Position numbers and translations under genes: made by a program. A stretch of DNA of 64,000 nt from Exobasidium rhododendri (taxonomy: Eukaryota; Basidiomycota; Exobasidiomycetes; Exobasidiales; Exobasidiaceae), in contig CP110632.1 of assembly GCA_026210745.1 (NCBI GenBank), positions 1,364,001-1,428,000 on the forward strand. The letters run 5' to 3'. Shown piece after piece: positions 4,144 through 48,049 of this stretch. Position 1 is the first letter of the stretch. Each line of letters starts with the position of its first letter. The notes beneath the pieces are model-generated. The model had not been told where the DNA came from. It searched no databases and was given only the letters and a program-made list of their open reading frames with translations.

Positions 4144-5235
4144 ATGGTGCTCTCCTCGTACCCGACATCCTTCACAAGGGCGCTGTGGACGTATCCTACA
4201 CTATTCGCCGTACTGTCTGGTGCCATCGGGCTCGGCAAGCGATCAGAGTCGCGCGACAGAAAGCACTGGCGGGATGCAGCACAACAAGCTCTCAAAGGTG
4301 TGAGCACGATACATGCTCTCTTGACGTCTTACTTGGCTGCGAGGGACGTCTTTGATAGAAAGTGGACTTCGTGAGTACAGTCCTGGGTCTGGAAGTAGTC
4401 GCGCACAGCTCAACTTGTATATTATTTCGTCCAGGCTCAATCTCATCACCACTCGCTCGAATGACGCCAATTCAGTGGTGGCCATCGAGGCCGGCTATCT
4501 CCTCCAGGACACAGTCGTCTCTGTAGTGAGTGAGGGGCTGACAAGGAGAAGATTACAATGCATACATACTGAAGTGTATGATGCTGGTGGTAGTTTCTGG
4601 ATAGTAAATGGAGCCCCGTAAATGTCCTAGTGGCAGGCAGTGACATTCATCGTGTGCGCTTCAGTAGCCTACTCTTGGCTCACCATGTCGGTCTTGGTGC
4701 GCTCCTGACTCTCTTCCTCGAGTTCGCCAGACGACAAAGGGAAAGAGGGGTGTTCTTTGTGGAGATGTTCCTACTCATGAATGCAAGCACTCCTCTCCTC
4801 AATCTAAGGTGGTTGCTGGCAAGGAGAGCTGGTCAAAGCAAGTCCTCTTCGCAGATAACAAGCATGCAGAGAATGTCAGCAATGAATGACGTCGCACTGG
4901 TCGTGACATTCTTTGCGTGTCGCATCGGTCTGTGAGTGTGTCTTCCTACGTTTGTTAACCGCTCATTGACAAGAGACGACGCCTACGACAGGATATTCTA
5001 CATGCTGTGGCTGTACGGTCTTCGTACTCGACGCTCTATTCTGCAGTCCTACTTGAGTGTGAGGAGGTCGTCAGTCTGCATTCTTTGCAGTTCATTTAAT
5101 TTACCAGCGCCCTCTACTTCGCAGATACCCATACAATGCAAGACCGGGACAGCTGCTCTGCTGATACTGAATTCACTGTGGTGGATGGGTCTCTTACGCA
5201 AGACGCTACTACGCCTTCAAAAGAGGAAGATATGA
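4144..5235 (+). CDS. TLC-domain (TRAM/LAG1/CLN8) membrane protein
   Basis: There are five exons, about 4144-4370, 4435-4529, 4637-4931, 4992-5058 and 5125-5235, giving 264 residues in frame. The TLC signature is visible as LLLAHHVGLGALLTLF, then LLMNASTPLLNLRWLL, FFACRIGL and the closing LLILNSLWWMGLL. This matches the TMEM56/TLCD-like branch (His-His, ST-P-x-LN-x-RW, then LN-x-WW). It is a multi-pass membrane protein, probably of the endoplasmic reticulum, with a lipid-related role by family analogy. It lacks the long ceramide-synthase Lag1 motif, so I do not call it a ceramide synthase. The exon 4/5 junction is the least certain. Confidence 0.75.
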
Positions 5236-5297
5236 GCACACAGATCGAATCAATAAAATTCACAAGGCAGTATTGTACAGGAGGAGATGATGGCAAT

Positions 5298-6587
5298 CTA
5301 CCTGGCCTGATTGGCGCCCGATCTCTCCAGGAGCCGCTCCATCTGCTGGGCGTCCTTGCTGCGCTTTGCTCGGATCTGCTCCTTTGTACCAGTCAGTCGT
5401 TCGTACACTGCATCACACCAGCGAAAGTATGGCGCAAATCCGGTTGTCCCCAGTCTGTGGTGCTGAGCGTGGATGATGGGGCCAGCTGTAGTCGACACAC
5501 ATCACATAGAAGAGAAACATTAGACACTTCAATCATGACTTTACTCCTGCCTACTTTGCCCGCCACTCACCGCCCCAGCCCTTCGGCAAGATCTTGTCAT
5601 ACGAGAGCACATTCAGTCCGCAGTGGTTCTGGACGAGGAACAAAACGAAAAAGGGAACAAAGAGCGTGCGTGTAAAGACATGAGCGCCGATGATCTGAAG
5701 GGCAAAGTTGGCCGTCAGGACGAGAAGAAGCCGTTCGCCTAGATCGAGCTTATTTGTGATTTGTGCGTGAATCTCTGCATGGTCGTGGTGCGTGGCATGC
5801 ATGCGGTTGTAGAGAAAGGAGACCTTGTGGAGAGAGAGGTGGACAAAGAAGAAGAGGGCGTCGTAGAGGACTAGGCTTCCCACCAGCTCCAACAGGAGAG
5901 AACGTGCCGTCGGTGGCTTGGGAGGGAGGGCACGCCAGAGCTGTAGAGGGCTGGACAATGTCATGTTGTGAACGGAAGGGGCTAGGAAGTGCGTCGTAGC
6001 GATGTTGGCCGGTCGTGCTTGGTTGAAAGGAGAAGAGGAGGAGGAGGAGTTTGCGGCAGTGACGCTGGTGGACAGCAGCAGCAGTGCAGGATCGTAATTC
6101 CCACTGGAGACCATCGCTTCCCAGGACACCCCTTTGAACTTCTTGATGAGGATCAAGTCGAGGAACAGCAGTGGCGACACATAGGTGACCAGCTCGAACA
6201 GTCGTCCTCGAAGTTTACGGACTCGGATGGTGCCGTTCTTCCAGAGATGAGATCGACCTGCACGCTGATCTATGCGTTCTGGCTGCGGCGGTCTTGGCTT
6301 GTCACTGATTGCCAGAGAGACGTAGTGGTGTTCGAAGAGAACGTACAGGCCTACTGTCCATACCGTCTCAAAGTAGGAGGCCTGTCCATACAGGAAAAGT
6401 ACAAGGATTGAGGAGTCTGACCTAGGCATACAGCGACATGACTTAAGTAACTCACCTGATAGAAGGATCGATTCAGCAGCCAATTCCACAGCCGATCCAC
6501 CGCCGGCTGCAGCAGGCTCGATGCCAGCAGGGCTGCAGCTGCTACTAAAACCAGCACAGCGCGTATCCTCGTTACATTCGAGTCCAT
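5298..6587 (-). CDS. Sterol desaturase / fatty acid hydroxylase superfamily protein
   Basis: There are three exons (6587-6456, 6381-5571, 5485-5298), giving 376 residues in frame. The di-iron histidine boxes are present: HLSLH (HX3H), HATHH (HX2HH) and, after the second intron, HAQHH (HX2HH). Hydrophobic segments occur near the N-terminus, around the first box and between boxes 2 and 3, as in ERG3/CH25H-like membrane hydroxylases. It would use two irons and O2 to hydroxylate or desaturate a lipid in the endoplasmic reticulum. It lies head-to-head with the arsM-like gene across about 490 bp, so a shared promoter is possible. The substrate is unknown, and membership of the arsenic cluster is speculative. 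Confidence 0.85.
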
Positions 6588-7076
6588 CCTGTTGAGAACG
6601 TTGAGAGCTTCGAGGAGATCGAGGTCGTAGAGCTGGGTGGGTTTGGCAGGGGTGGTTGATTGTGGACGGAGACGCTAGCTGACGCGAGTGTGCATAAATG
6701 CGAAAGAGGCGGCCGATCCGACCTGCATTCACTTTATCATCGCCTTAGAGTGCGAAGACTGGGGATGGCAGAGGAAGACGAGCAGCTGAGGCACTTTACG
6801 AACCAGCATCACTAGACAGGCACAGGATGGAACTGCATTGAAATGGAAGTGTCGATCACTTGGGAGACCCAGGATGATCCGGGAAGCGCAGCTCGTCTCA
6901 CCCACTCAAACACCGCTCTTCCCATGCACGCCAGACAGATCTAATCTGATTCTTTCTCTGATTTCCAAAACAAACAGATTCTATGAGAAGAGAGAAGCGC
7001 GCGCCACTATCATTGACACTTTCTCCCCTCAAGCAGAGTGTAGGATAGCTTACACACACTTCCAGTACCCTCGACA
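6588..7076. promoter_or_regulatory. Divergent intergenic region, hydroxylase / arsM-like
   Basis: A 489-bp gap separates two start codons on opposite strands, so it must hold both promoters. No transcription-factor site could be assigned with confidence. Confidence 0.4.
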
Positions 7077-8177
7077 ATGACAGCTGCGATCTCGTCATCG
7101 CACGAGGTAGCTGCCACACCCAGCAACGCCTCGACGCTGCAATCCGCGCAAGACTACTACGGACGAGTGATACAGAAGACGAGTGACCTGCGCACATCGG
7201 CGTGCTGCTCTATTCCCTCGAGTGATGCACGGATTCGGGCGGCATTGAAGCGGGTCCATCCTGACGTCTCTGAACGATACTACGGCTGTGGCTCACCCAT
7301 CCCCCCACTGCTCGACAATACGACTGTGCTCGATCTAGGGTGTGGAACAGGGCGAGACTGTTTTGTTCTCTCTCAACTGGCGGGGTCAGGCAGTCGAGTG
7401 ATCGGCATCGATGCAACAGAGTCACAGTTGGACATTGGTCGTGCCGCTCTGGACTGGCATCAAAGGGAGAACATTGGCTCGTCATCAATCGAATTCATCC
7501 GCGGCGACATGTCGAACATGAGAGAGATAATACACGACGCCAGTGTCGACGTGGTCGTGTCGAACTGCGTCCTCAACCTGACCTCGGACAAGGAGGCGGT
7601 GTTTGGGGAAATTGCACGAGTGCTGCGACCGGGTGGTGAGTTGCTCTTCGCCGACATCTTTGCCAGTGAAATCCTCGATCCAAGCTTGCTCCTCGATCCA
7701 GTCTTGCATGGGGAGTGTCTGGCGGGAGCGCACTACTTGCCCCAATTACAGGAACAGCTTCACTCCTTGGGGCTCTCCAAGGTCTTCGTCATGACAAGCA
7801 CCCCCGTTGAAGTCCACGAGGAGGCTCTCCGCAACAAGCTCGGTGCAGACATCGCCTTCACTTCCCTCACCGTTCGAGCATTCAAGAGCAGCACTACACC
7901 AGAGAGTAACAGCGTCGAGAAGGAGGTACAGGCAGTGTTCAGTGGTGATGAGAATAACAACTCCTTCACACTGGATCAGCAGACCATCTTTTGCTGCCGT
8001 GGCGATCGGAAGGAGGTCCCTGGAGATGTGTTCAAGGTCCTCTCGCAGTCGCGCTACAGCTCCCTCTTCCACGTTCAAGGGCAGGAGGAAGCTCAAGCGC
8101 AGTCCGGCGAGACATCCTCCTCCGAAAAAGCCACTGCGCTGGCGAATGAATCAAGGAAGACTGGCCGCTGCTGCTGA
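7077..8177 (+). CDS. arsM: Arsenite S-adenosylmethionine methyltransferase (ArsM/AS3MT type)
   Basis: This intronless 366-residue protein methylates trivalent arsenic with SAM. SAM motif I is VLDLGCGTGRD (residues 84-94), followed by VIGIDATESQLDIGR. The four cysteines of the family are all in place: CC at 43-44, Cys71 in RYYGCGSPIP, Cys164 in VSNCVLNL and Cys214 in HGECLAGAHY. They correspond to the As(III)-binding set known from algal ArsM (near 44, 72, 174 and 224). A Cys pair closes the C-terminus (GRCC). The stop is 8 bp from the stop of the convergent GT2 gene. With ArsS and the two glycosyltransferase-like genes next door, it probably supplies dimethylarsenic for arsenosugar synthesis rather than acting only in detoxification. 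The start codon is well placed; residues 1-25 are poorly conserved. Confidence 0.93.
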   Translation: MTAAISSSHEVAATPSNASTLQSAQDYYGRVIQKTSDLRTSACCSIPSSDARIRAALKRVHPDVSERYYGCGSPIPPLLDNTTVLDLGCGTGRDCFVLSQLAGSGSRVIGIDATESQLDIGRAALDWHQRENIGSSSIEFIRGDMSNMREIIHDASVDVVVSNCVLNLTSDKEAVFGEIARVLRPGGELLFADIFASEILDPSLLLDPVLHGECLAGAHYLPQLQEQLHSLGLSKVFVMTSTPVEVHEEALRNKLGADIAFTSLTVRAFKSSTTPESNSVEKEVQAVFSGDENNNSFTLDQQTIFCCRGDRKEVPGDVFKVLSQSRYSSLFHVQGQEEAQAQSGETSSSEKATALANESRKTGRCC

Positions 8178-8184
8178 AATCGCT

Positions 8185-8988
8185 CTATGCCACCTTGATG
8201 CTCTTGCCATAATACCATTCATAGATCGTCGTGGGTGAGACACCGGCCGTCCAGGCCAGCATGTAGAATTGATTGCAAATTGTATTCCACCAGACACCCT
8301 TGCGCACCCATCGTCTCGGACTTGTAGTGACTTCCATGGGTAGGATGTGAACGCAGGTGGGCTCTAGTTTAAATAAGAGAGACTTTCGCCATTGCTTCCT
8401 TCCAGAGATGATGCTATAGGACATCTTGTATCGCTTGAGTAGATCAACGTCCTCCATCATCGGAATGTCGGCGAACCCGCCCATCCTCTCGTACTCTTCG
8501 CGACGTACAAAGTAGGCCTGGTCGCCGTATGGTAGATGTGCTACACTCGCTCGTACATTGGCGGCCCACAGCATGATCCTGAGTGACAGTGTGACGGGCG
8601 TCGGGAGAGAAAGTCTGAAGCATCCCAGCAAAGGTTGAACGTCCTTCTTTTCATCCATGAGCCTACAGATGGCCGTGTCCCAGCCTTGTGGCAGCAGGGT
8701 GTCGGCATGTAGAAACACGAGAATCGGGGAAGAGGTCATCTTAGCACCGCATATAAGCTGTCTTCCTCTTGATGGCCTCTCCAGACAAGTGTACGATATG
8801 GCGTTGGGGTACCTCTTGCCTACGTGAGCTACAATCTTGCTCGTCCCGTTTTGTCCGCTCTCTGCATCAACGACAAAGATACGAGGATATTCTCCAAGGG
8901 TGGAAGTCTCCATCACACGGATCAGCGTCCTCTCGATGGCTTCGGCCTCATTGTAGCAGGGTATGACGACGCTGATGGACGGTGCCAT
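8185..8988 (-). CDS. GT2-family glycosyltransferase of the arsenosugar type (TIGR04283-like)
   Basis: This is a single exon of 267 residues from Met 8988; an upstream in-frame Met at 9033 would add 15 residues. The N-terminus ISVVIPCYNEAEAIERTL is the GT-A nucleotide-sugar fold. It is followed by a VVDAES segment, the SRGRQLICGAK block, ILVFLHADTLLPQGW (the DxD-like HADT typical of this branch) and GGFADIPMMEDVDLLKR. This arrangement is that of the bacterial family NCBI calls arsenosugar biosynthesis glycosyltransferase TIGR04283, recognised from memory. The gene is convergent with arsM (8-bp gap) and divergent from the DUF2064 gene. I infer transfer of a sugar or polyol unit in organoarsenical assembly; the actual substrate is unknown. 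No membrane segment is evident. Confidence 0.85.
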   Translation of the reverse strand: MAPSISVVIPCYNEAEAIERTLIRVMETSTLGEYPRIFVVDAESGQNGTSKIVAHVGKRYPNAISYTCLERPSRGRQLICGAKMTSSPILVFLHADTLLPQGWDTAICRLMDEKKDVQPLLGCFRLSLPTPVTLSLRIMLWAANVRASVAHLPYGDQAYFVRREEYERMGGFADIPMMEDVDLLKRYKMSYSIISGRKQWRKSLLFKLEPTCVHILPMEVTTSPRRWVRKGVWWNTICNQFYMLAWTAGVSPTTIYEWYYGKSIKVA

Positions 8989-9110
8989 GACACTATCCCT
9001 GCAAAAGGGGAGAAGAGTGGAGGAGACCAACACCCCTTCTCAGAAAGCTTCTTTTGAAAAGTTGCGCGTCAAGTCTTTGTCTTCTTTCTGTTACGACCTC
9101 ATTGGGATTG
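8989..9110. promoter_or_regulatory. Short bidirectional promoter, GT2 / DUF2064 genes
   Basis: Only about 120 bp separate the preferred start codons of two oppositely directed arsenosugar-type genes. With the longer alternative starts the gap shrinks to 20 bp. This implies a shared promoter and co-expression of the pair. Confidence 0.5.
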
Positions 9111-9848
9111 ATGGCAGCTCGTCACCATCTCCTCCTGTTCGCAAAGTACCCCTACCATGGAAAGGTCAAGACACGACTAGAGCCTCTCTTCGGCAAGGCT
9201 AATGCTCAGAAGTTTGCAGAGACCGCGCTTCTTGAAGTGCTGAAGTACTTTGGACGCTTGCAAGGGGACACAGTGGAAGACGTGGCTGTAAAATGCGTAT
9301 GGATGTATGCTCCTCTGGCGGCTGGTGAAGACGTGCAGCGGTTGTTAGAGGGGAACAATCTCTCCACAATATGGGAGGCATGGCCACAAGATGATGGAGC
9401 GCCGGATCTCGGAGCTCGACTGTCGACTGCTGTTCAAAGAGCTGCTCGTGACCATACAGGTGGTCACTCTACAAAACGCACCTGCACTCTGATCGGAAGC
9501 GACTGCTTCGAGCTCACTCTAGATCATATCATCTCAAGCATCCAAACAGCCTCAAGGGGTCGTCCGATGCTCTTACCAGCCGTTGATGGAGGATACGTAT
9601 CGCTGTCACTGCCCCAGCCTGCCTCGATCTCATCGTTCGACAACATCAGATGGTCCACCGCAGAGACAGCCAGCGATCAGAAGTCTCAGTTGGAGCAAGG
9701 AGGCTACACAGTGGAATTAGGGGTCACTCTATCCGACGTGGATGAGCCCAGCGACGTCCGTATGCTTTCCACAATGAGTGAAAATACAGCGCGAGCCACA
9801 CACCTCCGGGCCAACTATCCCCGCACACTTGCCTTTACTCAAGCATAA
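9111..9848 (+). CDS. DUF2064 glycosyltransferase-like protein (TIGR04282, arsenosugar type)
   Basis: This intronless protein has 245 residues from Met 9111; Met 9054 would add 19. It opens with HHLLLFAKYPYHGKVKTRL, the family's nucleotide-binding signature (FxKxPxxGxxKTRL). It continues with IGSDCFELTLDHI (GxDCPxL region), PAVDGGYVSLSL (the DGGY block) and SDVDEPSDVRML (DVDxxxDL). These are the hallmarks of the CofC-like/DUF2064 family that co-occurs with ArsM, ArsS and the GT2 protein in bacterial arsenosugar operons. It may activate or transfer a nucleotide-bound sugar or glycerol unit. Its direct adjacency to the GT2 gene on one side and ArsS on the other supports the assignment. The shorter start fits bacterial homologues better. 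Confidence 0.87.
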   Translation: MAARHHLLLFAKYPYHGKVKTRLEPLFGKANAQKFAETALLEVLKYFGRLQGDTVEDVAVKCVWMYAPLAAGEDVQRLLEGNNLSTIWEAWPQDDGAPDLGARLSTAVQRAARDHTGGHSTKRTCTLIGSDCFELTLDHIISSIQTASRGRPMLLPAVDGGYVSLSLPQPASISSFDNIRWSTAETASDQKSQLEQGGYTVELGVTLSDVDEPSDVRMLSTMSENTARATHLRANYPRTLAFTQA

Positions 9849-9879
9849 TTCAGCAAAGAGGTTGATGAGTAAGGGTACA

Positions 9880-11586
9880 CTACGCTTCAGCAAGGCTTCC
9901 TCCACATGAAGAGCCAGTCCCCGCCGTGCAGCCATAGCAATGTTTGGCAGTCTTGATCGGCTGCTGCGCCAGCACATCTAGGGAGTCTGAGAAGAGAACA
10001 GTGAGCACACGAGAGAGGAATATGTGTATATAGAGTGGGAGTAGAAACTGACCTAGTGTCCATATGTCTGCCCTTTCCGAATTCATAGGCATGTCAAGAG
10101 CGGCGTTGAAGTCACAATCGAACAGCTTGCCATCCCATTGAACGTTGATCGTCTCTCGGCACATCAGGCCGGATAGAGTGGACGGATTGAACGTCTTTGC
10201 CAGTAATTGAAAGTACTCGCTGAGCTTGCCACTCTGGAAGAGATCGTCAGCGAATCGTTTGATGGGCATGTTTGTGATGGCGAATAGAGAATTGAATGTG
10301 ATGCCTTGATTCGTGTGTAGTTGATTGCGATACTCTTCCTCGAGCGAGGCCTGACTCGGAGGCAAGGAAGCGCCACTGGGATTGTAGACCAGGTCCAGCT
10401 GCAGCCCCGTCCCCTCCTTGCCGTACCCTACGTCGTTGAGCAGACGGATGGCCTCGACGCTGGCGTAAAAGTACAGGGGAAGGATCAGTGTTTATAGTGA
10501 TGACGTTCGATAGCCCCCCTTCTTTCTCTCTCACCTATCTTGGTGCACCCTCTTTCCCCTCTGCTTGTCCGTTGTCTCTTCTGTGTAGCAAGGAAGAGAA
10601 GCTACAACGTGTACCTGTTGATCTGCCAGGAACTCTACGAGATCTTCTTGACCTTTCTCGAACAGAACAACGAGATTGCATCGATCGATCACTTGCTTTC
10701 CCAGCGAGCGTGCCTGTTTTAAGAATAATAAAGTGGACAAGAGTCAGAGGCCGTTTTGGTTGCTCGACTCCTTATTCCAAAGCTCCTCACCGCCTTCACA
10801 AGATGTCGAAAGTGCAGATTCAGCTCGGGCGCACCGCCGGTGATATCTACTACCTCGATCGACGGACTGCAGAGGCGGATTATTCAGCTCCTGCTTCATC
10901 TCTTGTTGAACTAAAGAGACTCACGATCTTCGCAACAATTCGATACACCTTTCCACGGTCTGAGGGGATAAGTGCCCGTCAGCAGACATCTCTACCTTGA
11001 TCAGCGTCCCAGTGACTCACTCTAAGGTCCATGTTCTCCCTTCTCTTCGATGGCCCTGATTCAACGTGGCAATGGCGGCAGGTGAGATTGCAGAGCTTGC
11101 CAATGTTGATCTGCAGCACGGTGGGCATGGCTGAGCAGACATAGGATGTGACTTATTCAGCATATAATCGAGAAGAGGTAAATCTACCGGGGGCCCTTCT
11201 CACCTCGTCGCAGAGGAGCACGCTCGATTTCAGCCACTCTTTGACCGAATGGCGAGACGGCTGCAGTCGCCTCATTCATTGCCTGTGGAAGTGTTGTGGT
11301 TGCATTGAAGAGGCTCCCTGTCAGCCCCTACCCTTCTTCATGCTTATGATGATTTATGATAATAACTCACCAGCGCTCGCTGTTCTTCTTTTCGTGCCTC
11401 TCGTCGCTGCACCACACTGATTGACTCGCGGAATGTGAGTGGTTCAGCCGCGGAGAACTTGAGTCGCCGACGTTGTGCCGCTTCTTGTCTGGTCGAAGTG
11501 GAAGATGAGCGCAAGCTGATAGCTCTACTCGCACAGAAGGTTGTTCGCCTCATTGTCGCTCCTGCCCACATCGTCGTACTCGCCAT
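9880..11586 (-). CDS. arsS: ArsS-type radical SAM enzyme of arsenosugar biosynthesis, probably mitochondrial
   Basis: There are eight exons: 11586-11371, 11327-11204, 11130-11021, 10959-10925, 10866-10791, 10713-10535, 10459-10053 and 9986-9880. Together they total 417 codons plus stop, in frame. After APLRR comes VLQINIGKLC NLTCRHC, the CX3CX2C 4Fe-4S/SAM motif. It is followed by HVESGP, VVDITGGAPELN, QVIDRCNLVVL and VASLPCYTEETTDKQRGK. The C-terminal DUF3641-like part has ITNMPIKRF, LSGLMCRETINVQWDG, LFDCDFN and HCYGCTAGTGSSCGG. ArsS converts the methylated arsenic product towards 5'-deoxyadenosyl-type dimethylarsinoyl compounds; this role is known from cyanobacteria. The N-terminus (MRRTTFCASRAISLRSSS, Arg/Ser-rich, no acids) looks like a mitochondrial presequence, sensible for an Fe-S enzyme. 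The exon 1/2 junction (43-nt intron, weak acceptor GGGTAG) is the least certain. Confidence 0.92.
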
Positions 11587-11756
11587 CGCAGCCGATCTCC
11601 TCTATCTCCGATGCAGTGGTGGTGCAGTAGGGAGGAGACGAGTGCACGCACTGTAAAACTCAAGGCAGGTCTGCGAATCTTGAATGTCTGTGCGCGTTAG
11701 ATCGAAAGTCCATCCCCACAATTCACTACACCGTCTGGGAAGATCCTCTCCCTTAG
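11587..11756. promoter_or_regulatory. Bidirectional promoter, arsS / P450
   Basis: A 170-bp gap lies between opposite start codons. Both promoters must be here or overlap the 5' ends of the genes. No TATA box is clear. Confidence 0.45.
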
Positions 11757-13298
11757 ATGGCAGTCTTCTCGTGGCTCAGGGGTCAGTCAGCACAGGAGGG
11801 TGCTCTTCCTCCACCACCTGGTCGACGCAGTGCTGTACCGCTGCTCGGACAAACCTTGTCGTTCCATGGTGCAGCCCATGATGAAGTGACGTCGCTAGTC
11901 GAGGCCACCGAATGTTCTTCGGTGCGACTCAACATCATCGCTCGGAATGTCGCACTCGTGACAGCCTATGAGGACGCTTGCATTGTGCTTGAGCAAAATT
12001 GGGACGTGGTACCAACAGTGTCGAGAGCACAGGCATACGAGCAGCTCATGTCCGCCTTCTACTCTTCACCAAATCTGCTCTTGGAAGACGAAGGCCAAGA
12101 GGGCTCCAAGGAACATCGACAATATTGGGAGACGTCCATTCACTATGCTCTACAAGAGAGTGATGTACAGAGCAGAGTCGCAGGTATGGTAGACAGCTGG
12201 CTAGAGAGGACGACAAGGGATAATTGCTTGACAGAGGATCTGTACGACGCATGCAAGAGCCTTGGCCACGATCTTGCCTTGGGAACGTTCTTGTCCTTGG
12301 ATAGCGGCAGCATGAAGAGCGGCCAGGATGGTCCGTCTCACGTTGATCTTCTCAGGTGGAGCGAGGAGATGCTCAGAGGCCAATTTACTCTGCCTGTTGG
12401 GTGAGTGCAATGCGAGGCATTAAAAGCGTTAGCCATCCCATCTCAAACGCTGCCCTGTCATCTTAAAAGGATCAACATTGGCGTCTTTCAGAACGCCTTT
12501 TCTCGAGGACAGGCAGCCAAGGCTCGATTTGACAAGGTGGTGGAAGAGCGACTGAGTGGAGGAGAGGCTGTACGTCTTTGTCCCTTCGCAGCTAACCCAT
12601 CGAATGGGTTGAGTACCGCCTCGCTCATATCACACCACTCCATGTTCTCTTCGAGTCTGGTAGTGAAAGGATTTGCTTCACTGGCCACAGCTCTTCTCCT
12701 ACAGCTTTTCAGGCAGGATGGGGACAACGACGAGACGCTCGCAAGTCAGCTCTGCTCCTCCGACGAAGAGTCATTCGCATCTCTACTCGACAGCATCATC
12801 ACCGAGACCGAGCGACTATCGCCGCCCATCATTGGCGTCATGCGAAGGGTTGTGGAGCCAAGAGGTCTCGATCTGATTGCATCTGGTACAAATGTTCCCC
12901 TGGGCTGGGATGTGTGGCCTTACTTTCCGCTTGCCAACAGAGACACGACTGCGTTCGGCAGTGACGCCTGCACTTTCAAGGCAGATCGGTACCTGGCGGC
13001 TCACAAGACTCCCGCGCCTTTGACGTTTGGAGTTGGAGTGAAGAATTGTCCAGGACGAGATGTTGTGCGGCTTTGGCTGAGAGAATTGGTCGCCTCTCTC
13101 CTAGGTAGAAGGACCACGAAGAAGTCGTTTCATCTTCAATTCGACGCTCGAGGAGGGCTTGATCGGGGTGTGCAAAGCTGGCTCGGCTGGCTCTCTGTCG
13201 ATCAGGCTGCTTCATGGAAGGATGTCAAGCAGCTGCCAACGCAGCGACCTAGAGAAGCAATACAGGCTCAATTCGTAGCGAGGAGCATCCCCCCTTGA
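11757..13298 (+). CDS. Cytochrome P450, soluble-looking and divergent
   Basis: There are two exons (11757-12400, 12470-13298), giving 490 residues in frame. The heme-binding loop is FGVGVKNCPG (FxxGxxxCxG), and the K-helix ExxR is ETERLSPP. The N-terminus has a proline-rich hinge (GALPPPPGRR) and PLLGQTLSFHG but no membrane anchor, which is unusual for a fungal P450. In the region expected for helix I (SSLVVKGFASLATALL) I see no acid-alcohol pair (AGxD/ET), so O2 activation may be unconventional or peroxide-driven. It lies head-to-head with arsS (170 bp) and tail-to-tail with the small CxxC gene (78 bp), so it is embedded in the arsenic cluster. I infer an oxidative tailoring step on an organoarsenical or its sugar. 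Substrate and CYP family are not recognised. Confidence 0.85.
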
Positions 13299-13375
13299 CC
13301 CTGCACTCCCCACGTCTCTGTCCTTGTATATATAGTGTAGTGAAGGGTATAGTGTAAATTTATCAAGGCGAATTC

Positions 13376-14000
13376 TTACAGCTTTGCATCACCGTCTTGC
13401 GGCTGGAGTGCCGCTCTGATGGCGTCCACCATCAGGCCCGCCCTCTGCTCGTCGATCGAGACCGTCTGACCTGGTCTGGCCAAGGCGCAAATATTAATCT
13501 GATCGCGAGACACAAGTTCTCGCACATCTTTCCCATCATCAAATAGTACTGTCGGTAGGCGAGTGCTGCTCTGCTTGGTGTATGTACGTAGCTGGAGATG
13601 TTTGCGTCAGTGACAATCTCTAAGAATACACTCAGTACCCCCTCCCCCACACACACACAAACGCACCCTCTCATCGAGCTCATCACGATGCAACTGATCG
13701 ACCCTGATGTTCAGACTCGACTGCAGCTTCTCCTTTGAGCTTTTCCAGGCAGTCGTCTCCGTCAAGCTTAGACCGCCATGAGTGATGTCGCAATTTCCGC
13801 ACACCGGCTGGCTCTGCTCTGCCTCTTCCGAACTGCTGCTGTGGAAGAGCTTCTTGTATGCATCTGAGAAGACGATGCGTGTTAATGACTCACTTGATCA
13901 AATTCGCCGTCTTCTACTCACACCTTAGCTTGCCAGAGATACTCCCGTCTGCATTGTAGACGATGACGACTCGCCTCTGATTATCTGCCGAATCTGCCAT
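13376..14000 (-). CDS. Small CxxC protein of unknown function in the arsenic cluster
   Basis: There are three exons (14000-13922, 13863-13667, 13570-13376), giving 156 residues in frame. The N-terminus is VVIVYNADGSISGKLRYAYKKL. Then come PVCGNCDITHGGLSLTETTAW (a CxxC followed by DITHGG), VDQLHRDELDER, and LPTVLFDDGKDVRELVSRDQI. I recall short bacterial proteins with the same order (YNAD, CxxC-D-TH, HRDE), usually hypothetical; I cannot name a function. The paired cysteines could bind a metal or arsenite or act in thiol chemistry. The C-terminal half resembles the 'price-the-substrate' beta segment seen in thioredoxin-like small proteins only superficially. It is divergent from the TauD-type gene (306 bp). 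The presence of introns shows it is an established nuclear gene. Confidence 0.8.
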
Positions 14001-14306
14001 AGATGCTGTTTTGCAGTGGTGCTCAACACCTTTCACTAGACTTCCCTAACGCGGGGCAGCACAAAACATCAGCAAGATGCAGTCCGAGAGCGAGGTGTGA
14101 TTACAAAAGGCAGCTTATGTCCGCTCGCACAAGCCAGTCGGCTTTGCAGAACAATATTTCATTAAAAATCGACGAGCACGCCATATTAGATGACGTGAGT
14201 GACCGTCTGCATCGCTCGTATGCTCTGCGGGAGCCAAGGACAGTGAGAATGATGTGCAATTCTTCACTATCCTCTTCTTCATCTTCATTCACATTGAAGT
14301 GTCAAA
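14001..14306. promoter_or_regulatory. Divergent promoter region, CxxC protein / dioxygenase
   Basis: A 306-bp gap lies between opposite starts. It contains TGACGTGA at about 14193-14200, which resembles a CRE/bZIP half-site; functional meaning is untested. Confidence 0.4.
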
Positions 14307-41250: not shown

Positions 41251-44200
41251 CTACTCTTCTACATCGGCTCCATCATCTTCGTGCTCGTCATCATCACTGC
41301 CCTCTTCCACTTCTAGGCGGGCCCGTTTGGCGGCGCCTCTACGCTCGGTAATCTTTGCTTCTTTGTCGTAGCGAGCCAGCGTAGTCACATTGCCATCCCA
41401 GTGTGACAAGGCGATGTTCTTGTGCCCACTCCTGCCAAATACGGCGATGTTATGAGCATCGACGAAGTGATTGCCAAAATCTCGCGTACTGCCACATTCC
41501 TCCACGCAAGACGGTATCGGGCAGCTCAGGACAGGCTTCTCGTTCTGATTGCTATCGGCCTCCTCCTTTGCTAACTTGATGATGTGCAATTGCATGTGTG
41601 AAGCCAAGTCAGCGTTGTCGCGGTAGCTGACGAAGAAAGAGAGGCTGTCAATGATAGAGCATCGGAAGGAGGACCGGCCTACAATGCACTCACGTAAAGG
41701 CCCTTTCCTCTGCGACGATTGTCTCATCGTGCAGACAGATGGGGCATCGTCCGGGCTGAACAACTATTTTGCCATCATAGACGACGCTATAGTCCACGAT
41801 TTGCTCTTGAGAGAGCGCCTGTAGATGTAAAGAGCAATGATCGCGCCAGGCACTTTGAGGCGTCACGAAAATTCTGCACTCATCGCAATACTTCGAGCAT
41901 TGCATCACCAAGTGCTTCATGTTCTTTGCACTCTGAAGACCTGGCAATAGCTGATGTTCTTGCTGGTAGTGAATGCGCATCTCGCCAGCGTTGTCGCATG
42001 TGTAGTCGCAAGAGGCAAACCAACACTTGCCAAGGAAGACTAGTCTGCCGCCGATAAGCTTTTGCATTCGAGTGTGGAAATGCAAATGCTTAGCCATTAC
42101 AAAGATGTCGCTAGCATCGACCTTACCGCAGTTGCTACGCTTGGTCGTCGTTGGGCATGGGCAGGCTGTCAATTCTTGCATGTTTTTCACAAGCTGACTG
42201 CGGGCCATCCAATCCTCAGCATGTCTTTCCAGTTCGCAATTCTGACGATGCGAAACGACTCTGCGAGGCGATATGTCCGTTGCTGAGCAGAGTCCGCACC
42301 CTCCCGGGGGATGCGAGTGGCCCACTGACTCGCGAAAAGGCTTTCCAAGCAGCATCTTGCTGTCGATGATCCGCAGCATAAGCTCGCATGGTGACAGAGG
42401 TGCTTCTGCTGTACCTAATAGCGTGCGGACCATCTCGTTGCGTCGACTCGCTTGCTGGACTGATGGTAGCTGCTGCCAATCGGAAGTTTGCTGTGTGGCT
42501 GAAGTTGCTGTCGAGTCTCGCGAAGCTGCCCTTGCCTTACCTTTGTTGCTCACTCTTGCGACTGCGTCGTCCTGCTCGAAGAGATTGCTTGGAATGCCCT
42601 CGCTTGCGACGACTGCGTCGCACTGCTCGTTACCAACGCCCTGCTCGAAGAGATTGCACTGCTCGAAGAGATTGCTTGACGTGGAATTGCCGCTCCAGCT
42701 TGTGCTTGCAGAAGTAGTCATGCTATCGATGCTTGTGTGACTACTGCCACTTGTGTCTGCTAGGTACGCATTGCTCTCTAAGTTTGCATCATCGCCATCG
42801 TTGTCGTCGTCGGCCTCGGAGTCCATTGCTTCTAAGTGCTCAGCCACGTCCATGATGGCGTCGACGTCGTCCTGCATCGTCTCTTGAGCAGTCAGACTAG
42901 GCATTGCCCTCTCAGCCAGTAACGCATCTGCTTCGTCCAGTGTCGCTATCGGATCTATAGCGCTGTCAGATGCGGAGTCCTCCTCGCGTACGATGCCCTC
43001 CTTCGTCGCACCCTCAAACAGCCTATCCACGACGCCCTGCCATTGCTCCCGATCATTTTCAGCCACGCACTTCTCCAGTTCCTGCTGATATGCGTTTTTT
43101 GCTAGCCTTTGTACAAGGCTATTGCAGTCGCTTTGTAGTTGCAGGTATTCGAGAGCATCTGCGTCGCAATCTATAATGCCTTGCTTCAGTGTTGCATTGG
43201 GGTTCTTGGCCTTGTACGAGTCTCGTGCTGCATTCCTCTGCTGAGTGAGCTCCTCGACATCTTCGCGGGCTGAGATTGCTGCTCGTCCAGCCACAGAGAG
43301 GGTCTTGGGCAAAGAGTACACTCGGCTCAATCGCTCCGTTGCCTGAATGATGCTCCGCTCTTCTTCCGAGCCTTTGACGAGTCCTTGCAAATCGACTTGA
43401 GCGGTGCGAGAGATGTATGCTCCAAAGACCTTGCTACTCAGATTATGGCCCATCATAAGCTTTCGGTCCTCTGCTGTGACTCCCTGGCAATTGAGGATGT
43501 TGCCAGACATTCTGCGCCAGACGTAAGCGGTATGGCGATTCACGATGCCTGCTCCAAGTCCCGCCAGTTCCAGCAGGTTTCCGAACCATTGCTGTGTTGC
43601 TGGCATATTGCTAACGAGGATGTCGCTCTGCGACCTAGCAAAGCGACGAAAAACAAAGCAGCGAAGACCTTCTGCTTTCAAGCGAATGGGCAGTGTGGTG
43701 CCGGGTGGCTGTTTGCTGACTGAAGAACAGCAACGTAGGATATCAGCGGCCGATGTCTCTAGCATTCCTTGTATCTCTGCTAGCCCCAGCAGATCCAGTA
43801 TTGGGCAGAGAAGCGGACGCTCCTTGTCGAGCCGAACGATGGTGCTTTTGAAAGAGCTGTCGTCCAGTCGCTTTCCTTTGAGTAGGCGATTGCATACTCT
43901 GGCTGCCAGCGTGCACTCTCCTCCTTTGCAGGTGACGTAGAAAAGCTCGATGTCGCACCATCGCAGACCGTCTTGCTGGTCTCCCTCCCAGCCGGGCGAA
44001 TGAATGAGCTCGCCAGGGCGAGACACTGTATAAGCGAGCATCTTGAGTGTGCCTGTGAAAGCGAGTCGCTCCTCTGCACTTCGAAACGGCAGTGCTTCCG
44101 AATAGACAGCACTGAGAATTGCCTCGAAGTCCACAGGCATTCCCACAGGCTTCGGTCGAGATGCTGTGATGAGGCTCAGCTCTGTCGCAAGGGCTGACTC

Positions 44201-44704
44201 GATGTAAGCAAAGACCAGTCTGCGAGTTTCTTTGCTGATCTCTGCCGATCGTGGATGGCGAACGACTGCTGACATCGTTTGGCGAATCAGCGAGAGCACA
44301 GTAGAGAGCTTGAGTGGGTCAGCAACGCCTAGGTCTGCTTGTGCACCTCTACTGCGGACACTGCCCACTCGAACGGAGGCAAACCATTTTGCGAAGCGTT
44401 GCCATTGCATAGTGCTGATAGGGCTGAGAGAGCCAGGGGGGTGGCGAGTGTCAGCGGGAAGATCCGGTGCGAGGTAGACTGCAGGATCGGAGCCACTGGC
44501 AGTGAAGAAGCTACGCAGGAGGGACAGGCATCGCTGGTGCATTCGCACTGTTTGGGGAGCCAGCAATTTACCAAAATGCAGACCATCGAGACCAGCCATG
44601 TCGTCCTGAATTGCAGCAGTGGTGTTGTCGATGCCTCGCTGCGCTGCGATCTGTGCCTCTCGTGCTCGGGCTCGGGCCTCCTGTTGCTCTTTGTTGCGAG
44701 CCAT
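41251..44704 (-). CDS. DUF3435-like tyrosine recombinase with C-terminal zinc fingers
   Basis: There are two exons (44704-41694, 41626-41251), giving 1128 residues in frame. The N-terminal core-binding part starts at LLAPQTVRMHQRCLSLLRSF. The catalytic domain shows TVSRPGELIHS (first Arg, about residue 229), WCDIELFYV, LLCPILDLLGLAEIQ, YVWRRMSGNIL (YxxR, about 393) and MMGHNLSSKVFGAYIS (GH and the candidate Tyr nucleophile, about 430). This order matches the DUF3435/Crypton-type recombinases that include Starship captains. C-terminally there are several CxxC/H zinc-finger-like units, for example CWFASCDYTCDNAGEMRIHY and CPIPSCVEECGSTRDFGNHF; one is split by the intron. A low-complexity part repeats NLFEQ three times. 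An in-frame extension to 44995 exists, but MARNKEQQEARARAR is the more natural start. Confidence 0.75.
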
Positions 44705-45909
44705 GTTGAGTAAGCCGCGGATGAGAGTCAGCCGGAGAACGAAGCGGAGTGAGTGAGCAATTCGGCGGAAGGTGGAACGGAGCGGTGAGCACGTAAATTG
44801 CGGCGTCAGCGCTACTCGGTAAGCGAGCCTTGTACATAAAATATATATGATCGGCGCGGTTTTTCCTTGGTCGCCTGGACTTGGTGGGCAGATTGCAATC
44901 AATTGGACATTGCTTAGCAGTATGATGGACAATGGGCACCTCTTTGCACTAGATGTACTGGCTTTCGAGCCTACATTGCCATTCAGGTCCATCAATACAC
45001 AGCAATATCATGATAGAGGCTTGACTGATGCCGACTTCAATACATAGGAGTCGCCTGGACTCTATTGTTATCCAGACAGGTCAAGTCAAATCCAGACTCT
45101 GTCATTACATATGAGGTGACCTTCATAATATCTTACACAGATATGTCACAGATCGTATGCACTGATTCATCTCCATCTCTTTGGATCCTCCCTGCTTTGT
45201 TTTGTTCACTACACCAGGAATAGGAGCCACTCTCCCTGATTCGGACATGTGCAGTGGGTGAGCTCCATGTAAGGTTGACGTCTGCGAGAATTCCGACGTT
45301 CTAGCTTTTGAGTCTGCACGCCATACCTTTGCTCCGTAATCTCCAACTAATACTTGGGTGCGGAAAATGGAGTCTAGAATGCGCCTTCCATGCAAGACAA
45401 GCTTATCTACGCGTTTTTGAGAAATTTTCTCCAGTATAGATACACTCTCATTAAACACACGAACCACTCACCAATTACGTGATCTGATTGGCGGAGGATA
45501 CAATATCGAAAGCTTGAAACGGTCTTAGGTCCAAAAGACCCATGTCAGTACTATGTAGACTGTATGGAGCAGAGGCCATGCCACTGCAGCACGCAGCCAT
45601 TCAGTCTAAATCGCAATTCTCCTTAGCCGATATCATTGACTGCCAACGAGAAAGACCTCTACGATGAAGACCTGCAAAGATTCGTAGATACGATACAGTG
45701 GAGTGCAAAGCTATTCGGATTGAATATAATGTGTCGCCATCTACGCCAAATTAAGCTCTCACATGATGGAATGTGTGGCAGAAGTCCTAGTGGTAGGCGG
45801 AAGAGTAAGCGGCGTAGGGCGAGGTGAAGGAGACAGTCGCAGAGTAAGCGGGCAGTAGTGGCGCACTCTTACTTGCCACTCTGCACACGAATATACGTAC
45901 AAGAGTCAC
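44705..45909. other. Region upstream of the recombinase, no clear gene
   Basis: A short minus-strand ORF at 45123-45467 and a plus-strand ORF at 45636-45827 do not resemble known proteins. The 12-mer GTCGCCTGGACT occurs at about 44870 and again at about 45051 as a direct repeat, the second inside a near-palindrome GAGTCGCCTGGACTC. Confidence 0.4.
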
Positions 45910-46442: not shown

Positions 46443-48049
46443 GGAAGTCGACCAAACTGACCCAAACATCATCCAATTGTTTTGCCAAAAGGATCGACAA
46501 ACCATTCAAGCTGCAAGTTCCTCCACCGTCGATGGACTCTCCTTGACGCTCCAGTCGGGTGAGGTCGCACTACGTCACGGTCCAAGTCGTGATCCGAATC
46601 TCAAGATCCATGGCGTTGGTGGTCGACGATTCTTTAGATGACGCCTTCGGTACCGATTGCGAATGGAGCTGAGATCTGCAAAGGATTCTTCCAGTCTCTT
46701 CGACCTGCCCAGATGGGTTTGATCTTGAACCTCGACGTTGCCTTCCGTTGCTTCCTCTCCGGAGGTCCTTTCCTGGAGGTCGCTGCAAAGATCCTCGGAG
46801 TGGGTAGCAGCGGCGGCGGCGGTGGAGGAGGTCGAGGTGGACGCGGTGGAAGAGGCGGTAGCAGAGGCGGCTATGGAGGCGGCTATGGAGGCGGTCACGG
46901 TGCAGCCCCTGTCATGCTTCAGACTCTGACCACGCATGAGCAACAAGCACTACGCAAGAAGTTACAAGGAGTCTCAATCATCCCCAAGCATCGACCAAAC
47001 GCGAAAGCGGAAAAGTTTACTGGCTTCACACCAAAGTCAGCTCGCAACACCTACTTTGAGCAAAAGGACGGCAATGCAGTCAAGAACATCTCCGTCATGG
47101 AGTACTCTGAGACGAAATTCAACCGCAAGATTTGCTTTCCCAACTTGCCTTGTGCTATGTTGAATCGAAAGACGTTTATTCCATTGGAGTTTTGCAAAGT
47201 GCTCAGTGGAACACCGGTACCGCTTCAACGCATGACACCAGCGATGACGCAAGACATGATTTGTGAAAGTGCTTTGAAGCCACCGATGCGATTGGAACGA
47301 AATCGAGAGATCCGGTACAAGAATGCGTATGAATCAAGCAAGCTGCTTCAAGCCTTTGACATGAAGATTGCTGCCGAGCCGGTACAGGTGGAAGCAAGAA
47401 CCTTGTCTTCCCCTCAGATCACGTATGGACGGGATCACAGAATGCAGGCTCGAGATGGATCGTGGAACTTGATGAATGCTCAATTTGTCGCCTCGGGAGA
47501 TGTTCTGCAGACGGTAGTCTTGCTCAATTGCGCACATCGTTCGGCCGCTCAGTGCCATCAGTTTGCCGAGCGACAGATGCAAGAGTGCAAGAAGCTTGGT
47601 ATGCATATCAATGTGCGACAAATGCACTACGAGGAATGTCCAGCTGATCCACAGGCGGTGCTCAACGCTATGAAAGAGGCCGGTCGAGCAGCATATGCTC
47701 TGGGCGGCAAAACAAAGGCGGCGGAGGAATCTACTCACGCCATCTGAAGGTCTGACGGGACTGTAGCTCTGAGCTTTTGCCGATCTTGATCATCGTGTTT
47801 CGTGATGGAGTGTCGGAGGGAGAGTACCAGAGCGTCAGCAACCTGGAAGTCACGTCACTCAAGCAGGCTGCCTCGAAGGTGAGAAGTTGTGGCGATGAAC
47901 GACAGTGGCGAGTGATTGACAAGCCTACCCGTTCTTTGTTCCCTTTTCTCTCACAATTGAAGCCAGGGTACAACCCAAAGGTCACCTTCATCGTCTGTGG
48001 GAAGCTCCATTGTATGCGCTTCAGTATCAAGAGCCCAGCAGACACAGAC
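46443..48049 (+). pseudogene. Argonaute gene relic (linker, PAZ, L2, partial MID/PIWI)
   Basis: The upstream piece VALRHGPSRDPNL with VGGRRFF matches the Argonaute DUF1785 (L1) region but ends in a frame break at about 46630. The next frame continues with PIANGAEICKGFFQSLRP, LNLDVAFRCFLSGGP, a Gly/Arg-rich insert (RGG-like), then PAZ and L2 blocks: LPCAMLNRKTFIPLEFCKV, TPAMTQDMICESALKPPMR and ARTLSSPQITYGRDH. The ORF stops after KEAGRAAYALGGK. A last piece, IIVFRDGVSEGEYQSV and GYNPKVTFIVCGK, is PIWI, but the stretch with the first catalytic Asp is missing and the sequence ends before the later catalytic residues. Frame breaks, an internal deletion and truncation make a slicer-active product impossible. 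Confidence 0.8.

Follow-up and report, generated by a model that had tools for sequence, protein, structure and literature searches.

Besides the cases cited below, arsenosugars have been reported in some fungi. One of the closest described systems to the locus examined here is the ArsM/ArsS pathway of Synechocystis (Xue 2019 and Cheng 2021, as cited in PMC8552651 and PMC12159101). As reported, ArsM methylates arsenic and ArsS then adenosylates it by radical chemistry. The same two families occur in a 64,000-nucleotide stretch of DNA, hereafter the window, from Exobasidium rhododendri CBS 101457, a plant-gall basidiomycete (Exobasidiomycetes), where positions 7077–13298 hold five genes in alternating orientation, encoding ArsM, a glycosyltransferase of the GT2 family, a DUF2064 protein, ArsS and a cytochrome P450. 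Here they stand in an intron-containing fungal cluster, with the GT2 and DUF2064 genes adjoining. The arsinothricin cluster arsQML of Burkholderia gladioli (PMC8552651) likewise combines an ArsM with a radical S-adenosylmethionine (SAM) enzyme that forms a carbon–arsenic bond. That enzyme, as described in PMC12159101, transfers a 3-amino-3-carboxypropyl group, whereas the window enzyme matches the ArsS model TIGR04167 over its cut-off. We lean toward reading the locus as a fungal arsenosugar biosynthesis cluster, with a five-step route to a predicted arsenoriboside.

For fungi, PMC13314834 names arsenosugars as possible arsenobetaine precursors, and PMC6278644 tentatively assigns a chromatographic peak of Ophiocordyceps to an arsenosugar. 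An initial annotation of the window, made from its letters, knew of no described fungal arsenosugar cluster. We too found no description of a fungal ArsS or arsenosugar cluster in the titles and abstract openings of the literature searched, a weak negative because that literature was openly licensed only. From the locus it seems that fungi possess arsenosugar genes of their own, and so compact a cluster would put named genes to a fungal arsenosugar source. The genes and the stretches between divergent starts are:

7077–8177, plus strand: ArsM-type arsenite SAM methyltransferase; 366 residues, single exon, C-terminal CC
8185–8988, minus strand: GT2 (GT-A) glycosyltransferase, TIGR04283-like; 267 residues, single exon
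8989–9110: GT2/DUF2064 intergenic stretch of 122 bases between divergent starts; possible shared promoter
9111–9848, plus strand: DUF2064 protein, TIGR04282-like, CofC-like nucleotidyltransferase fold; 245 residues, single exon
9880–11586, minus strand: ArsS radical SAM enzyme; 402 residues, 8 exons (11586–11371, 11282–11204, 11130–11021, 10959–10925, 10866–10791, 10713–10535, 10459–10053, 9986–9880)
11021–11130, minus strand: ArsS exon 3, carrying the CX3CX2C cluster motif (CNLTCRHC)
11587–11756: ArsS/P450 intergenic stretch of 170 bases between divergent starts; possible shared promoter
11757–13298, plus strand: cytochrome P450 of a distinctive fungal family; 490 residues, two exons (11757–12400 and 12470–13298)

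The initial annotation had placed a eukaryotic, intron-containing locus of five genes here, and all five were found at these coordinates. ArsS has seven introns of 58–88 bases, all GT-AG, and the P450 gene has one. Over its 402 residues, the spliced ArsS model shows 100% identity to the NCBI entry 'hypothetical protein CBS101457_005576 [Exobasidium rhododendri]'. The ArsM and GT2 genes end 7 bases apart and the DUF2064 and ArsS genes 31 bases apart, and the base composition of the cluster genes resembles that of their neighbours. When the genome (17.65 Mb in four contigs, the locus being on one of 4.98 Mb) was searched for the ArsM, ArsS and GT2 families, strong matches occurred solely in the cluster, all others falling below 30 bits. 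Two Acr3-like arsenite pumps are encoded elsewhere in the genome, one of them exceeding the family cut-off.

ArsS reaches 429 bits against TIGR04167, above the curated NCBI cut-off of 300. The spliced protein carries the radical SAM motif CX3CX2C that had been ascribed to it, as CNLTCRHC, and the C-terminal motif C-x-[GA]-CTAG-x-GSSC as CYGCTAGTGSSC; the latter recurs in 118 of the 120 relatives listed, among them the window's own (the list, which also supplies all ArsS relatives below, covers the top 120 of 8000 matches). The four arsenic-binding cysteines claimed for ArsM were borne out. C43, C71, C164 and C214 align with C44, C72 and two later cysteines of the solved arsenic methyltransferase 4kw7, and all four positions are cysteine in 7/7 bacterial ArsMs from ArsS loci. 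The C-terminal CC of the fungal ArsM also recurs in six of these seven. The earlier view that ArsM and ArsS are the likely makers of the adenosyl-dimethylarsenic precursor is supported.

The GT2 protein matches the Pfam GT2 family and the GT-A fold. The DUF2064 protein passes the Pfam gathering score of PF09837 and has a CofC-like nucleotidyltransferase fold; in structure comparisons made by VIA-align, its model matched sugar- and alditol-phosphate nucleotidyltransferases with the CofC/IspD/GlmU-like fold. Judged by this model, nucleotidyltransferase is a more fitting label for it than glycosyltransferase. The initial annotation had called both proteins glycosyltransferase-like, and the families it named, TIGR04283 and TIGR04282, are indeed the nearest, both at scores below cut-off. 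Of the 120 GT2 relatives listed (the best 120 of 232), 27 carry GT2 and DUF2064 fused in one protein. In the GT2 tree, 25 of the 26 rows that we labelled eukaryote-like, the window's among them, form a set separate from the other rows (support 100), P0147 lying outside. A GT2 match from the red alga Purpureofilum groups with a GT2-DUF2064 fusion protein, apart from the fungal set.

The same families were sought around bacterial ArsS genes. The 57 loci comprise 17 from a genome-contig scan and 40 regions hand-picked, mostly for contig space and thus non-randomly, from the 117 genomes with ArsS out of 398 searched; the 30 best-scoring ArsS genomes, present as loci shorter than 4 kb, were excluded from the counts. 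Neighbour genes were called by home-made profiles at E 1e-10, and 20 regions from some of the same genomes served as controls. The partners found were ArsM (7 loci), GT2 (8), DUF2064 (11) and 5′-methylthioadenosine (MTA) phosphorylase (3), and none of these four genes appeared in the 20 control regions. These counts are lower bounds because several loci stop at contig ends; relaxing the search to E 1e-3 added solely weak matches of 20–31 bits. GT2 and DUF2064 stand together in 8/57 loci and 0/20 controls, and any of ArsM, GT2 or DUF2064 was found in 9/40 loci versus 0/20 controls (p 0.023). Since the same families also adjoin in some bacterial operons, a chance meeting of four rare families in the fungus is unlikely.

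Three bacterial loci (L019, L072 and L090) hold all four protein families of the fungal cluster, in a span of at most about 6.5 kb. L019, from Alphaproteobacteria CG1_02_46_17, reads in order ArsS, ArsM, MTA phosphorylase, GT2, DUF2064, a cytidine diphosphate (CDP)-alcohol phosphatidyltransferase-like gene, one gene that matched nothing and an arsenate-reductase-like gene. Its MTA phosphorylase (282.7 bits) and ArsS (461.7) score above their cut-offs, and its GT2 (160.9), DUF2064 protein (119.6) and ArsM (189) below theirs. L019 positions 4774–14139 are a candidate for a complete arsenosugar-lipid operon. Phosphate-transporter-like genes also lie in this interval. L072 holds phosphate-uptake-like genes, ArsM, DUF3047, DUF2064, GT2, a VTT/flavin adenine dinucleotide (FAD) oxidoreductase, ArsS and a divergent phosphorylase-superfamily gene. 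Compared with the fungal cluster, the bacterial extras are the MTA phosphorylase (L019, L072), the CDP-alcohol phosphatidyltransferase-like gene (L019), the phosphate-uptake-like genes (L019, L072) and DUF3047 (L072, L090); the fungus instead has a P450 in the cluster and its phosphorylase elsewhere. The third locus with an MTA phosphorylase, L074, has it about 5 kb from ArsS. A VTT-domain membrane protein and an FAD oxidoreductase adjoin bacterial ArsS as one frame in L017 and L072 and as two genes in L019.

From these data the following route is proposed. ArsM would convert arsenite to dimethylarsenite, and ArsS would add the SAM-derived 5′-deoxyadenosyl radical to dimethylarsenic, giving 5′-deoxy-5′-dimethylarsinoyl-adenosine. 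Both steps are reported for homologues rather than for the window proteins themselves. Third, an MTA phosphorylase encoded elsewhere would swap adenine for phosphate, producing 5-dimethylarsinoyl-alpha-ribose-1-phosphate. Phosphorolysis is proposed because dimethylarsinoyl-adenosine resembles MTA and because a phosphorylase is present in L019 and L072. A phosphorylase match lies on a different contig of the fungal genome (240.8 bits in one frame, against a cut-off of 274.85), so there is no need for the cluster itself to hold such a gene. The DUF2064 protein would then form nucleotide-activated arsenoribose, and GT2 would pass the arsenoribosyl group, in an inverting transfer, to glycerol or to an acceptor that contains it, yielding a beta-riboside, the form that arsenosugars have. 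For these last three steps (phosphorolysis, nucleotide activation and glycosyl transfer) no demonstration was found in the literature searched. The phosphorylase reaction would invert the configuration to alpha, and the GT2 reaction would return it to beta. The beta-ribofuranoside named in the title of PMC6656958 is in line with such a double inversion.

The cluster gives a hint of the way in which the sugar steps may proceed. Taken with the phosphorylase-bearing bacterial operon and the DUF2064 fold, it reduces them to three enzymes that can be purified and a prediction that follows directly. A route through nucleoside diphosphate (NDP)-arsenoribose would, if true, also solve the sugar steps of bacteria and algae. 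In its most specific form, the DUF2064 protein would use the phosphorolysis product to make NDP-(5-dimethylarsinoyl)ribose, GT2 would transfer it and the P450 would yield an organoarsenical not yet seen; as a complete chain this is speculative and we give it a small chance.

Several results weigh against an arsenosugar cluster. ArsS is the sole protein of the four above a curated NCBIfam cut-off, and the hidden Markov model comparison that the initial annotation had proposed therefore came out well for ArsS and short for the rest. GT2 gives 173.3 bits with its best match TIGR04283, just under the cut-off of 182, and the DUF2064 protein 109.5 bits with TIGR04282, under 134. ArsM gives 144.8 bits with its best match, the PRK11873 arsenite methyltransferase (cut-off 263), and 85 bits with the arsenosugar-specific ArsM model NF038099 (cut-off 400); because the latter cut-off is missed, it is filed as a general ArsM, outside the arsenosugar subfamily. 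The four families, said initially to define bacterial arsenosugar operons, do co-occur in ArsS loci, but in 3/57 of them and hence not universally. Enrichment taken gene by gene is not significant between the 40 loci and the 20 controls (p about 0.16 each), and with a phosphorylase in 3/57 ArsS loci the link to that enzyme is thin. Lithohypha, Lipomyces and Coccidioides are absent among the 120 listed of 232 GT2 matches; as these named fungi bear ArsS, fungal ArsS may also work without this GT2. The three divergent intergenic stretches have no common word of at least 7 bases.

Among the alternatives, the one that survives best keeps the arsenoriboside as product and changes the chemistry. A hydrolase or GT2 would remove adenine, and the DUF2064 protein and GT2 would act otherwise, for instance in making the acceptor or a lipid-linked form. 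The low phosphorylase count around bacterial ArsS speaks for this, as do a fold that reveals no substrate and GT2-DUF2064 fusions that exist without showing the order of steps. Against it, two of the three loci with all four families (L019 and L072) do carry a phosphorylase, and the DUF2064 fold is that of sugar- and alditol-phosphate nucleotidyltransferases. We regard such a variant as possible, though doubtful.

A further proposal, compatible with the arsenosugar cluster, concerns the P450. It scores 40.1 bits against PF00067 on its second exon (cut-off 22.8) and has the ExxR motif (ETER) and the heme-ligand motif FxxGxxxCxG (FGVGVKNCPG). An acid-threonine pair is usual in the I-helix of P450s. 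The present family is without it, the window P450 reading SSSLVVKGFAS there; known P450s also depart from the pair, so the membership stands. In an alignment of the window P450 with nine relatives, S276, S277, L278, V280 and K281 (SSLxVK) are invariant in 10/10, as is KQLPTQ near the C terminus. The search for relatives passed 57 of 8000 scored candidates. The closest, P0241, has 58% identity over 56% of the query, and the named ones are ascomycetes at 31–38% (Hortaea, Salinomyces, Vermiconidia, Alternaria, Cladonia and others). A protein identical to our P450 model is absent among the 57, so NCBI's model may differ.

The initial annotation took the P450 as the sign of a new product. The P450 could tailor the arsenosugar or the adenosyl precursor into a new fungal organoarsenical, and its start is 170 bases from the divergent ArsS start; the invariant SSLxVK and KQLPTQ also mark it as a distinctive family. 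Position is nevertheless its sole link to arsenic, and its named relatives do not overlap the named fungi among the listed ArsS relatives. An attempt to link the P450 to arsenic through its relatives failed, as the ten-sequence profile matched CYP120, taxadiene 5-alpha hydroxylase and sterol 14-alpha demethylases in the PDB. The enzyme may modify the product or the precursor, or may be a bystander; a P450-tailored product seems to us rather unlikely.

The ArsS relatives bear on the remaining alternatives. Lithohypha guttulata (60%), Lipomyces kononenkoae (56%) and Coccidioides immitis (53%) supply the best named relatives among the matches listed, which also include a EukProt protein coded 'Clim' (48%), a code we take to stand for Corallochytrium limacisporum. 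These proteins belong to the same clade as the Exobasidium ArsS and have an N-terminal extension before the core; their database entries call them hypothetical, uncharacterized or radical SAM/Cys-rich. Eighteen eukaryote candidates were hand-picked, mainly by this extension. In a 91-row tree, 17 of them form a set together with P0013, with a support of 95 in the SH-like approximate likelihood ratio test (SH-aLRT), P0033 lying outside. P0004 is the sister of the Exobasidium ArsS (support 92), and its in-frame stretch at the site of Exobasidium ArsS intron 1 is probably a retained intron. The ArsS P0004 and the GT2 P0130 come from the same eukaryotic-looking source, each on one contig of 12350 bases, which suggests that their genes may be neighbours.

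Among 15 eukaryotic ArsS candidates examined, 12 have at least 4 basic and at most 2 acidic residues within the first 35, as in mitochondrial presequences, and 10 have an RxExRK-type motif before the core, versus 0/105 other listed rows. The window ArsS (P0001, residues 1–70) has a presequence-like N terminus. By these sequence features, ArsS may work in mitochondria.

It could also be that the route of ArsM and ArsS stops at dimethylarsinoyl-adenosine, formed as the end point of detoxification or as a precursor of arsenolipids. GT2 and the DUF2064 protein would then serve another glycan, their genes being neighbours because of shared regulation. The other named fungi with ArsS and no GT2 relative among the matches listed fit such an ending. 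The adjoining GT2 and DUF2064 genes at 8/57 bacterial ArsS loci against 0/20 controls do not, nor does the second eukaryotic-looking source with both ArsS and GT2, and we think this quite improbable.

Horizontal transfer of ArsM genes, with eukaryotes among the recipients, is known (PMC5552862 and PMC5398495). A recent bacterial operon transfer or bacterial contamination, to which the intronless ArsM, GT2 and DUF2064 genes might point, is very unlikely given the ArsS introns, the neighbour-like base composition and the 4.98 Mb contig, and is contradicted for ArsS and GT2 by the seven introns and presequence-like N terminus of ArsS, the clade of eukaryotic ArsS candidates (SH-aLRT 95), the GT2 clade of 25 eukaryote-like rows (support 100) and that composition.

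Beyond the five genes, an open frame with a fatty-acid hydroxylase domain (PF04116) lies at 5554–6744 on the minus strand, divergent from ArsM. A long open frame at 41693–44770, also on the minus strand, has a DUF3435 domain (PF11917, 105.8 bits) and perhaps belongs to a recombinase-type mobile element. On the plus strand, the open frame at 46638–47744 encodes PAZ and Argonaute linker domains and is probably one exon of an Argonaute gene or a fragment.

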